A stretch of 64,000 nucleotides of DNA from Flavobacteriales bacterium (GTDB lineage: Bacteria; Bacteroidota; Bacteroidia; Flavobacteriales; Flavobacteriaceae), in NCBI GenBank assembly GCA_018335925.1, contig JAGXRF010000017.1:124001-188000 (forward strand). Reading direction: 5' to 3'. Within the stretch, counting starts at the first letter, position 1. Every line of letters begins with the position of its first letter. Of this stretch, positions 51,327 to 55,442 are shown piece after piece. Position numbers and translations under genes: made by a program. The notes under the pieces are model-generated. The model was not told the DNA's origin. It did not search any database and saw nothing but the letters and a program-made list of their open reading frames with translations.

Positions 51327-52844
51327 ATGCAAAAAAAAGTTCTTTTGATGATTTTAGATGGCTGGGGACACTCCCCTGACCCTTCTGTTTCTGCTGTTGA
51401 TCAAGCAAATACTCCATTTATAGACAGCTTGTACCAAAACTACCCAAGTGCTACCCTTAGAACAGATGGTTTGCATGTAGGATTGCCAGATGGTCAAATG
51501 GGTAATTCAGAAGTAGGACACATGAACTTAGGTGCCGGTAGAATTGTATATCAAGAATTAACTCGCATTAATTTGGCTTTACAAAACCAAACTTTAGCCA
51601 AAGAAAAAAGTTTGCAAGATGCTTTTTCTTATGCCAAAGACAACCATAAAAAAGTACACTTTTTAGGATTGGTTTCCAACGGTGGCGTTCACTCTCATAT
51701 TAGCCATTTAAAAGGTTTGGTAGAAGCTGCCCACCAATTTGGTTTAACAGATTGTTATTTACATGCTTTTACTGATGGAAGAGACGTTGACCCAAAAGCT
51801 TCGTTACAAGATTTACAAGAATTGTTGCCAGTTTTAGAAAAGAACCAAACCAAATTGGCAAGTTTGATAGGCAGATATTATGCCATGGATAGAGACAAGC
51901 GATGGGAACGTGTGAAATTAGCATACGATTTATTGGTACATGGCAAAGGAACCCCAACCAAAGATATTTTAAAATCTGTGCAAGAGAGTTATGACAACCA
52001 AATTACTGATGAATTTATTGCTCCATTGGTAATAACCAATGAACAGCAACAGCCATTGGCTACCATTGCACCGGATGATGTAGTGATTTTCTTTAATTTT
52101 AGAACCGACAGAGGAAGAGAACTTACAGAAGTATTGAGTCAAAAAGATTTTCCGGAATTTGACATGAAAGCTTTGCCTTTGTATTATGTTACCATGACCA
52201 ATTACGATGAAACGTATCAAAATGTGAAGGTAATTTACAACAAAGACAACCTGACCAATACCATTGGTGAGGTAATTTCCAATGCTGGTAAAAAACAAAT
52301 TCGCATTGCTGAAACCGAAAAATATCCGCACGTTACGTTCTTTTTTTCAGGTGGAAGAGAAGAAACTTTTGAAGGGGAGACTCGAATTTTAAGAGCTTCT
52401 CCAAAAGTAGCCACCTACGATTTAAAGCCTGAAATGAGTGCTTATGAACTTAGGGATGCTCTATTACCTGAATTAGCAAATGAAACTGCTGATTTTATTT
52501 GTTTGAATTTTGCCAACGGAGATATGGTTGGCCATACCGGAGTGATGGAAGCTGCCATACAAGCATGTGAAGCGGTAGATGTTTGCGTAAAAGATTTGAT
52601 TGAAACCGCATTAGCCCATCAATATACTACGATTGTAATTGCAGACCATGGCAATTGTGAAACCATGAAAAATCCGGATGGGAGTCCGAATACGGCACAC
52701 ACCACCAATCCGGTTCCGATTATTGTGGTAGACAACGAAATTAAGGAGGTAAAATCGGGAGTTTTAGGAAATATTGCTCCCACCATTTTGCATTTAATGG
52801 GAATTGAAAAACCTGAGGAAATGGATTTGGAGAGCTTGGTGTAG
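51327..52844 (+). CDS. gpmI: 2,3-bisphosphoglycerate-independent phosphoglycerate mutase
   Basis: LLMILDGWGHSPD, MGNSEVGHMNLGAGRIVYQ, ADHGNCETM. Confidence 0.97.
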   Translation: MQKKVLLMILDGWGHSPDPSVSAVDQANTPFIDSLYQNYPSATLRTDGLHVGLPDGQMGNSEVGHMNLGAGRIVYQELTRINLALQNQTLAKEKSLQDAFSYAKDNHKKVHFLGLVSNGGVHSHISHLKGLVEAAHQFGLTDCYLHAFTDGRDVDPKASLQDLQELLPVLEKNQTKLASLIGRYYAMDRDKRWERVKLAYDLLVHGKGTPTKDILKSVQESYDNQITDEFIAPLVITNEQQQPLATIAPDDVVIFFNFRTDRGRELTEVLSQKDFPEFDMKALPLYYVTMTNYDETYQNVKVIYNKDNLTNTIGEVISNAGKKQIRIAETEKYPHVTFFFSGGREETFEGETRILRASPKVATYDLKPEMSAYELRDALLPELANETADFICLNFANGDMVGHTGVMEAAIQACEAVDVCVKDLIETALAHQYTTIVIADHGNCETMKNPDGSPNTAHTTNPVPIIVVDNEIKEVKSGVLGNIAPTILHLMGIEKPEEMDLESLV

Positions 52845-52888
52845 AATCATACATTATCTCATTCGCTAATTAGCTAATTATCTAATTA

Positions 52889-53034
52889 CCCTAGCCCTGA
52901 TGGCAGTGGCAGCCTTGTGCAGACAAATGTTTGTTTTTGTTGGTTGTACCAAGCGACCAACGGAAGCTTGGTAAAGCCTTACAAAAACTGCATTTGGCAA
53001 ACAAGCTAGAACGGACAGCAGGAATTAGCTTCAA
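52889..53034. ncRNA. Candidate structured RNA / recurrent flavobacterial intergenic element (Flavo-1-like; family identity unconfirmed)
   Basis: CTAGCCCTGATGGCAGTGG ... AACGGACAGCAGGAATTAGCTTC with closing helix CUA-GC-CCUG/CAGG-AAU-UAG and an internal 8-bp hairpin TACCAAGC-N11-GCTTGGTA (52947-52973). Confidence 0.5.
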
Positions 53035-53045
53035 AAAAAGAAAAA

Positions 53046-55442
53046 TTAGGTTTTGGATTTGAGCCATTTTTTAGCTTTTTCGTATTCTAAAAAGTAGCGA
53101 ATGCTAACCGAAAAAGTGTGGTTTAAATTATTCTCGAACAGATTACTGAAATTTTGTCCGAAATTATAGTTGGCTTCATTGATAAATTGATTGCCGGTGT
53201 TGCGATACAAAAACGACATTTGACTTCCGGGTGCAAACCACCAAACATAGGAAAAGTCTAAATTCCACAACCCAAAATTATTGTCTCTATTTCGGTCAAA
53301 AGCGATAGGGGCAAAAGTACCATTTGGCAACAAAACCAAATAATCGTTGTTTTGTACCACCGACCAATAATGACGCACGGATAAGTTAAAGGTCATGTCT
53401 TGGTTGATTCCGTATTTTGCGGTTACTGTTTGGGTATACGTATCGCGATCACGCAATCCTAAAATTACTTGTTGGTTTTGAAAGCCTGTCCACCCTACAT
53501 CGTTAAACTGTTTGTTGAAATTAAAACGATAAATCACATTTAATTTATCGCTAAAACGATACCTTGGTGAGATGGAGTAGTTCCAATTGGATCGATTTTC
53601 TTGGTCAAAATAATTGAAACTAAAATTCAAATCCAAAGCAAACTTACGGTTGTAATTACTGGAAAAAGAATACCATGTCCCCCAATTTTTTGGCACAATT
53701 AAAAATCGGCCCTCTACCCTTGGATCATAATAATCGTAGGTATCGGTTGGTGCTACATAGCCTCCAAAACCAAAATAGTCATTCTTTAAAGTAGTGGAGT
53801 TGATATTTAATCCAAGTGTACTTTCTTGAGGCTTTCCGGTTTCTTTGTTGTATTGAAAATAATGGTATGTATTGGCACTAAAAGAGTTAAAAATTTTGGT
53901 AGGATTTAAAATTCGATAGTTCAAATTCAAATTACCTTCGGTATAATTGGTAATAAAATTTATACCCAAATCGTTGATGTCGTAATCTTTGGTCATGCTT
54001 GATAGGTAAGCATTGTAACGAAATTTACCATAGGTTTTACCAAAATAGGATTCCCAATGCACCCCGCTTTTACTTTCCAGTCCATATTGGCTACTCATTT
54101 TTACACTACCTCCGTAATTATAAGTATTCTTTTTGGTGTTCAAATCGGCCAAAACTCCTAAAACATTGGCATCTCTAAAATGTCCGGATCGTGTCACATT
54201 GGTATTGATTACCGTTACGGAGGAATTCTGGTTAAAACGTTGGTCAAAAACAGTAACATTAAAATTAGTTAAAGGCTCCACCACTTCTGATCGAATTTCA
54301 CCGGTATCTTCATTCTCAATCAAAACCTCCGTTCTTTCGGTAATGGCATTTAAAAATCCTATCCCCAAGCCATCTTTTCCTCTTCCGGAAATTTTAGTGG
54401 CATTAATCATGTTTACAGCACTCGGAAAGTATTGCACTTTTTCGTTTTCGGCTACATTAGGAAATTGTGTTGGAGGTCCACCAATTCTTCTGGTGTACAA
54501 CAAACCTCCCTTGTTAAACAAATCGGTTCCTTCGGTAAAAAACGGACGGTTTTCGTTAAATTGCTGTTCAAATGGACCTAAATTTAAAATCACATTATCA
54601 AAAGCAGCTTGTCCGAAATCGGGCACCAATACAGCATCTAAAGTATACGCATCATTGATCCCGTATTTTACATCCATACCGGCTTTAAACAAAGAAGATT
54701 GGTTATTTCCTAGTATGCTGTGATAGCCGGAAGTATAAGGAATAAAAAACAATCGCAATGGTGGTTGGATATTAGAAATTCCTTTCAAAACTCCAGCTTG
54801 ACGAATGATGCCTCCTTTTTTTAAATCGATGTGGTTCCAAGTGTACTTATATCGCAATCTGCGGAATTCTCGTAAAAAGTTCAGTCCCCATACTTGGTCT
54901 TTTTCTACCGAAAACCGAAGAGCTGCATAGGGAATTTTCATTTCTATCACCCAACCAAAATCGGTAATTTTTACAGCACTTTTCCAAATGCCATCCCATG
55001 AAAAATCCTCTCCACCAGCTTCTAAAGCAACTGCATCCATTTGTGTTCCGGCTGCACTTACAAAAAATCGGAAATCTTGCTGACCATCATTAAATCCGTT
55101 GATAAAAACCCCAAAGTGATCGGAAGTAGCAAAGCGATCTCGTTGGGTAATTTCCTTCATTATTTTATTGGGTTCACTATCGTATAAAATAGCTCCAATA
55201 TAAATGGCTTCGTCATCGTATAAAATTTTTACTTCGGTTCTGTTTTCTTTAGGCTCTTCTACTCCATTATCTGGTTCAAACATCACAAAATTAGTGGCAA
55301 CAGAAAGGTGGTTCCATGCTTCTTCTTCTAAAACTCCATCAATACTAATAGGTTGTTGAATACGTTTGGCTACCAATTCTTTTTTGTTGTTTTGGGCCAA
55401 CATTCCTATAGTGAAAAACAAAAAGATGAAAATTCGATACAT
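53046..55442 (-). CDS. DUF5916 domain-containing outer membrane protein with N-terminal CBM9-like domain
   Basis: VAKRIQQPISIDGVLEEEAWNHLSVATNFVMFEPDNG, RFRFFVSAAGTQ-like segment, C-terminal barrel. Confidence 0.88.
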   Translation of the reverse strand: MYRIFIFLFFTIGMLAQNNKKELVAKRIQQPISIDGVLEEEAWNHLSVATNFVMFEPDNGVEEPKENRTEVKILYDDEAIYIGAILYDSEPNKIMKEITQRDRFATSDHFGVFINGFNDGQQDFRFFVSAAGTQMDAVALEAGGEDFSWDGIWKSAVKITDFGWVIEMKIPYAALRFSVEKDQVWGLNFLREFRRLRYKYTWNHIDLKKGGIIRQAGVLKGISNIQPPLRLFFIPYTSGYHSILGNNQSSLFKAGMDVKYGINDAYTLDAVLVPDFGQAAFDNVILNLGPFEQQFNENRPFFTEGTDLFNKGGLLYTRRIGGPPTQFPNVAENEKVQYFPSAVNMINATKISGRGKDGLGIGFLNAITERTEVLIENEDTGEIRSEVVEPLTNFNVTVFDQRFNQNSSVTVINTNVTRSGHFRDANVLGVLADLNTKKNTYNYGGSVKMSSQYGLESKSGVHWESYFGKTYGKFRYNAYLSSMTKDYDINDLGINFITNYTEGNLNLNYRILNPTKIFNSFSANTYHYFQYNKETGKPQESTLGLNINSTTLKNDYFGFGGYVAPTDTYDYYDPRVEGRFLIVPKNWGTWYSFSSNYNRKFALDLNFSFNYFDQENRSNWNYSISPRYRFSDKLNVIYRFNFNKQFNDVGWTGFQNQQVILGLRDRDTYTQTVTAKYGINQDMTFNLSVRHYWSVVQNNDYLVLLPNGTFAPIAFDRNRDNNFGLWNLDFSYVWWFAPGSQMSFLYRNTGNQFINEANYNFGQNFSNLFENNLNHTFSVSIRYFLEYEKAKKWLKSKT

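Follow-up and report, generated by a model that had tools for sequence, protein, structure and literature searches.

Genes beside Flavo-1 copies carry a one-strand mutation footprint that goes with the presence of the element, which suggests that Flavo-1 acts on DNA rather than as a small RNA gene. The footprint is new here. Rfam lists the family under the type "Gene; sRNA", and its function has been obscure since 2010. The chances seem evenly balanced that Flavo-1 is instead a chromosomal DNA repeat, forming on its + strand an imperfect hairpin with recurrent strand-specific exposure or repair synthesis, and not a dedicated sRNA gene.

Rfam cmscan of the window (the whole 64,000-nt stretch of DNA that was analysed) returned RF01705 (Flavo-1) at 52889-53029 on the + strand with 46.8 bits (E 6.4e-7), above the curated gathering cut-off of 42 bits; the only other Rfam match in the window was one tRNA. 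All consensus arm pairs of Flavo-1 are formed in the alignment of the window copy. Flavo-1 occurs in Bacteroidota in several copies per genome, as was found both for the genus of the window copy and for its own genome, where further copies are present. Above the cut-off, Flavo-1 was found in 139 of 150 genomes of the genus. The window stretch is securely a genuine copy of Flavo-1, belonging to a long capped subclass. The first-pass annotation, which had given the sequence and the coordinates 52889-53034 correctly and had guessed at Rfam Flavo-1, a recurrent intergenic element of flavobacteria, was therefore right. Its description of a non-coding element between the convergent genes gpmI (iPGM, PF06415) and DUF5916 (PF19313) also stands, with zero ORFs of at least 60 aa overlapping the element. 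What it had missed is the long capped subclass and that the family is more like a DNA repeat than an RNA gene. Flavo-1 RNA was described by Weinberg et al. in 2010 (PMC2864571), listed as a likely RNA that is not cis-regulatory, and a survey based on Rfam (PMC9029176) places it with the most abundant sRNAs.

With its 3' tail and A-tract, the window element spans 52889-53039 (+), the position profile of 152 copies showing conservation to about +17. The 5' arm TAGCCCTGATGGCAGTGG (52892-52909) and the 3' arm ACGGACAGCAGGA (53011-53023) were both placed by a two-arm profile and are joined by covarying pairs; the pairing of the ends noted earlier is CCTG with CAGG, with AGC/GCT outside. An inner perfect 8-bp hairpin had also been correctly read, with TACCAAGC at 52947-52954 and GCTTGGTA at 52966-52973. 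This apical hairpin (52947-52973, +) is seen in the sequence and in the minimum free energy folds of both strands. A second perfect 8-bp pair, GTTTTTGT (52933-52940) with ACAAAAAC (52981-52988), forms the variable inner helix (inverted repeat I5), which covaries in 54 long copies. The same copies share a near-invariant cap, GCGACCAACGGAAGC, at 52953-52967 of the window, for which exact matches occur genus-wide and the reversed-pattern control gave 0 matches in the genus. The 3' tail ATTAGCTTC and A-tract (53024-53039) end the element with an A-run, not the T-run of a terminator. The + strand fold was better than those of dinucleotide shuffles (z −2.8, 2 of 200 shuffles as good), and the advantage of the − strand fold was smaller (z −1.5). 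For the window copy, a candidate H-type pseudoknot in which GTTGG would pair with CCAAC in the cap (window 52939-52961) was rejected, as the long-class consensus does not support it.

Copy density ranged from none to about 50 per Mb across genomes. Most genomes of the genus have at least 20 Flavo-1 matches at a scoring limit of 29, and the window's own genome is copy-poor. The two-arm profile, trained on strict matches, gave 179 placements in the flavobacterial sequence searched and 3 in the reversed control. Between arm ends, copies fall into a class of about 42 to 95 nt and a class of 130 to 138 nt, to which the window copy belongs; whole-element lengths are about 80 nt and, for the long subclass, about 145 nt. 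The Rfam model handles the cap region of the long subclass as a loop insert. The exact cap 15-mer was found in 33 of 61 Flavobacterium genomes (reversed pattern, 0 there) and in 0 of about 112 other Bacteroidota genomes. Carriage by plasmids or phages was considered and rejected, with zero plasmid matches and one meaningless 24-nt phage match. The cap 15-mer was present in 53 viral contigs, and these occurrences are ascribed to chance because none is accompanied by a pair of arms. A related type of element, with a GCGT(T/G)AGGG...CCCGACCC end, was observed in the genome that the window comes from (L007:1501-1600, L008:1501-1600). It is built on the internal-loop helix of Flavo-1, apparently with an extra hairpin and an outer stem, and may be a separate family. 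In genome G013, many copies (L263-L282, L336-L355) have a 3' extension, ATGG...CCATTCGCTCC, located after the main hairpin and ahead of the terminal GCTCC.

The arm pairs covary across 151 family copies, with TA72/CG41/AT33 at pair 7 and AT59/TA58/GC30/CG4 at pair 11, while the purine mismatches between the arm pairs (A-G, G-A, A-G) are retained in 141-150 of these 151 copies. When the 54 long copies are aligned, at least two Watson-Crick types are seen at 29 of the 39 helix pairs. Covariation of this strength, near-invariant unpaired purines and cap, and a + strand fold better than shuffles are what would be expected if Flavo-1 worked as an RNA, with transcribed copies that fold and bind protein or act within a transcript. 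However, G-U pairs are ten times rarer among the arm pairs (0.7 %) than in tRNA stems from the same sequences (6.9 %). This rarity indicates that changes in the arms replace one Watson-Crick pair by another almost without wobble intermediates, which is unusual for RNA and compatible with a DNA hairpin or with one-step template switching. Template switching is reported to create and maintain hairpins (PMC8794818). Inner hairpins do show more G-U than A-C (47 vs 18), which could be counted for an RNA. This was withdrawn as an RNA sign because a + strand bias from A to G and from C to T turns A-T and G-C pairs into G-T and so predicts the same mild excess.

Position profiles of 152 copies gave no promoter signal of the form TA..TTTG upstream of the element and no T-run after the hairpin. 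The lack of both a promoter signal and a terminator, together with a copy number that ranges so widely between genomes, speaks against an RNA function. In the F. psychrophilum transcriptome (PMC9723704), several Flavo-1 copies lie within 5' transcribed regions, as an RNA reading would have it, but matches are sense or antisense indifferently and many show no transcription. Sites and orientation are conserved, as an RNA role could also explain. The DNA-level footprint described below, which extends over 2 kb, would not be expected from an RNA. On balance, function as an RNA is unlikely.

Orientation relative to genes is weakly biased. Among 137 copies with clear neighbours, 56 were antisense to both genes and 30 sense, while convergent gaps accounted for 25 and divergent gaps for 26. 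The distance between the 3' end of the element and that of a gene is often 15-50 nt, and the window copy separates two convergent genes, an arrangement that would suit an intergenic transcription terminator or 3'-end stabilizer. Such a role is very unlikely, since the + strand hairpin lacks a T-run, no terminator was predicted at the window site and, for about one copy in five, the neighbouring genes are divergent.

The footprint was seen at synonymous sites of neighbouring genes. Within 1 kb of the element, the third-codon-position GC skew on its + strand was +0.18 and +0.25 in the two flanks; beyond 3 kb it was about 0. AT skew was negative. The mean third-position GC skew over ±2 kb was 0.156, against −0.001 (sd 0.030) for random orientations and 0.018 (sd 0.022) for context-matched intergenic sites; ORFs for this analysis were called mechanically. 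In co-oriented genes, the G fraction of NNR codons fell from 0.253 near the element to 0.163 far from it, and the C fraction of NNY codons rose from 0.225 to 0.265. In anti-oriented genes, NNY C fell from 0.381 to 0.265 and NNR G rose from 0.142 to 0.172. Synonymous sites within about 2 kb on both sides thus bore out, with a distance gradient, each of the four predictions that follow from A-to-G and C-to-T change on the + strand. The direction of substitutions was the same (C>T 1490 vs G>A 1113; A>G 1623 vs T>C 1151). Whichever chemistry is responsible, one of the two strands is handled differently, and this holds to either side of the hairpin.

The discovery of the footprint was exploratory, since flanking skew was at first tested one-sidedly for the other sign and gave a strong reversed result; a five-genome set serves as confirmation. 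Values were positive for 55 of 62 copies (sign-flip P=5e-5), for 18 of 22 when genome G013 was left out (P=0.009) and for 61 of 96 copies from other loci (P=0.001). The effect was strongest in the copy-rich G013 (38 of 40 copies positive), weak in G042 and absent at the four copies of G051. It was weak and mixed in the window's own genome, where the window element itself gave 0.076 at ±500 bp, the effect being confined to about 500 bp to 1 kb around it and fading by 1.5 kb. Two confounders were considered. Replication strand gave 37 vs 17 by total GC skew in 100-kb windows, but 35 vs 27 by third-position skew in 50-kb windows, and replication direction is not the cause because both element orientations show the footprint against the same regional skew. 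Codon usage is countered by the use of two-fold synonymous classes, by the separation of co-oriented and anti-oriented genes and by the orthologues. For DUF5916, a strong skew on its own strand is present in the absence of Flavo-1 too.

Comparison of orthologous sites linked the footprint to the element. Sites holding Flavo-1 had a skew of 0.152 and their empty orthologues −0.036 (P=2e-4; 27 pairs from species 70-90 % alike, sharing some sites and some empty genomes), and filled orthologues were concordant (0.134 and 0.135). Synonymous-site values around terminator-like hairpins were flat, with no footprint, and nearly all other intergenic repeat families tested showed no effect of the size seen for Flavo-1. 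These comparisons bear on a further explanation, in which Flavo-1 is a MITE-like or REP-like selfish repeat with no host function and the footprint merely reflects insertion into an already skewed strand. Intergenic dispersal, the lack of coding capacity, presence and absence between species and the common 5' flanks of recent copies (about 20 nt in several recent copies of G013) are all typical of such repeats. But the empty orthologous sites lack the skew, the other repeat families lack the footprint, and sites and orientation have been retained over long times. Alignments of filled and empty sites gave no clear target-site duplication between the diverged species compared. A selfish repeat of this kind, with the footprint due to its insertion sites, is unlikely. 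One exception among the repeats, a GGAAGAT family in G013, was observed to have a strong one-strand synonymous bias around minisatellite arrays (on contig C3, at about 272 kb and about 646 kb). Its repeats are not independent sites because they are confined to one or two dense arrays.

The possibility that a RAYT (Y1) transposase uses Flavo-1 as its REP substrate was rejected as well. Flavo-1 copies are short intergenic palindromes with mismatches and RAYT-like genes are present in these genomes, yet no convincing Flavo-1 was found up to about 1.5 kb from any of 26 Y1 loci in 18 genomes (there was a single weak profile match of 21 bits). Both RAYT-like genes inspected were flanked by a different repeat, and Y1 genes also occur in genomes with no detected Flavo-1, so that this relationship is extremely improbable. 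In G013, a repeat array of repetitive small ORFs adjoining a RAYT-like gene (L407:1901-2242) is distinct from Flavo-1.

Orientation was the same in 28 of 30 orthologous site pairs with support on both flanks. Some orthologous sites are empty in one species, and one site may hold the short form in one species and the long capped form in another. Two relatives with Flavo-1 copies inside the DUF5916-gpmI spacer (L200:4013-4116 and L220:6321-6411) have near-identical flanks and arms with different apical hairpins, a clean hairpin swap at a fixed site. Both copies lie at the same 3' end of DUF5916 and in the same orientation to it as in the window, and no recognisable Flavo-1 was found in the other DUF5916-gpmI spacers inspected. 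A promoter-like box, TTATCTTTGT, precedes gpmI in most relatives and is missing in these two. Elsewhere, in two near-identical genomes, the same Flavo-1 copy in L134 (1290-1650) and L118, with flanks 96-98 % alike, differs by an insert of about 92 nt within the long hairpin. DUF5916 and gpmI are co-directional in all 79 relatives in which both genes were found, with gpmI about 2.7 kb further on in a few. The convergent order at window 51327-55442 is thus matched by 0 of 79 relatives, indicating that the window copy lies at a local rearrangement junction.

Family membership, a conserved structure that hardly tolerates G-U, the gain or loss of copies and frequent change of hairpin at orthologous sites under constant orientation, and the footprint are matters of observation; the mechanism is what we infer. 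Strand-specific processing would unite the footprint, the hairpin turnover, the low wobble and the rearranged window site. Tentatively, and with somewhat less confidence than in a DNA repeat as such, we propose that Flavo-1 is an unrecognised kind of DNA element whose hairpin repeatedly, and in a strand-specific way, brings about single-strand exposure or gap repair across a few kb, setting the local mutation spectrum and driving hairpin exchange and rearrangement. Its covariation would then come partly from DNA template switching and not from selection on RNA. The hairpin would comprise arms in which the purine mismatches are conserved, an inner helix that can be exchanged and, in some copies, the conserved cap. 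On the + strand it would be recognised or cut repeatedly, after which one strand would be left gapped or single-stranded over a few kb, to be exposed and refilled. A-to-G and C-to-T changes on one strand result from deamination of an exposed strand and likewise from G-T misincorporation in repeated resynthesis. Either A and C of the exposed + strand may be deaminated or, with equal standing, the refilled + strand may keep ordinary G-T misincorporations. Template switching during refilling could preserve a perfect palindrome while exchanging the inner hairpin, and events of this kind might occasionally rearrange the site. If copies do mark strand-specific DNA processing, many "sRNA" annotations in Bacteroidota are misfiled, covariation alone is insufficient evidence of an RNA, and mutation in the genes to either side of Flavo-1 is shaped by a DNA mechanism that can be tested directly.

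The window copy resembles Flavo-1 RNA as described for RF01705 (PMC2864571) in its arm sequences, internal purine loops, covarying arm pairs, occurrence in Bacteroidota and score above the cut-off. It departs from the model in its 82-nt interior, compared with 17 nt, and in a conserved cap outside the model's description, and the present evidence points to a role in DNA rather than to the annotated sRNA gene. With REP/RAYT repeats and MITEs, Flavo-1 shares many short, palindromic, non-coding intergenic copies that are present or absent between species. Unlike them, it has no RAYT neighbour and no clear target duplication, its inner helix is exchangeable at conserved sites and orientation, and it has a one-strand mutation footprint. 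The behaviour of the hairpin has a parallel in template-switch quasipalindromes (PMC7202029; PMC8794818), in which arms change jointly in one step, with few G-U intermediates, in a strand-specific way and with hairpin swaps at a fixed site. Flavo-1 differs from these in that its arm mismatches persist and its neighbouring genes bear a mutation footprint of about 2 kb.
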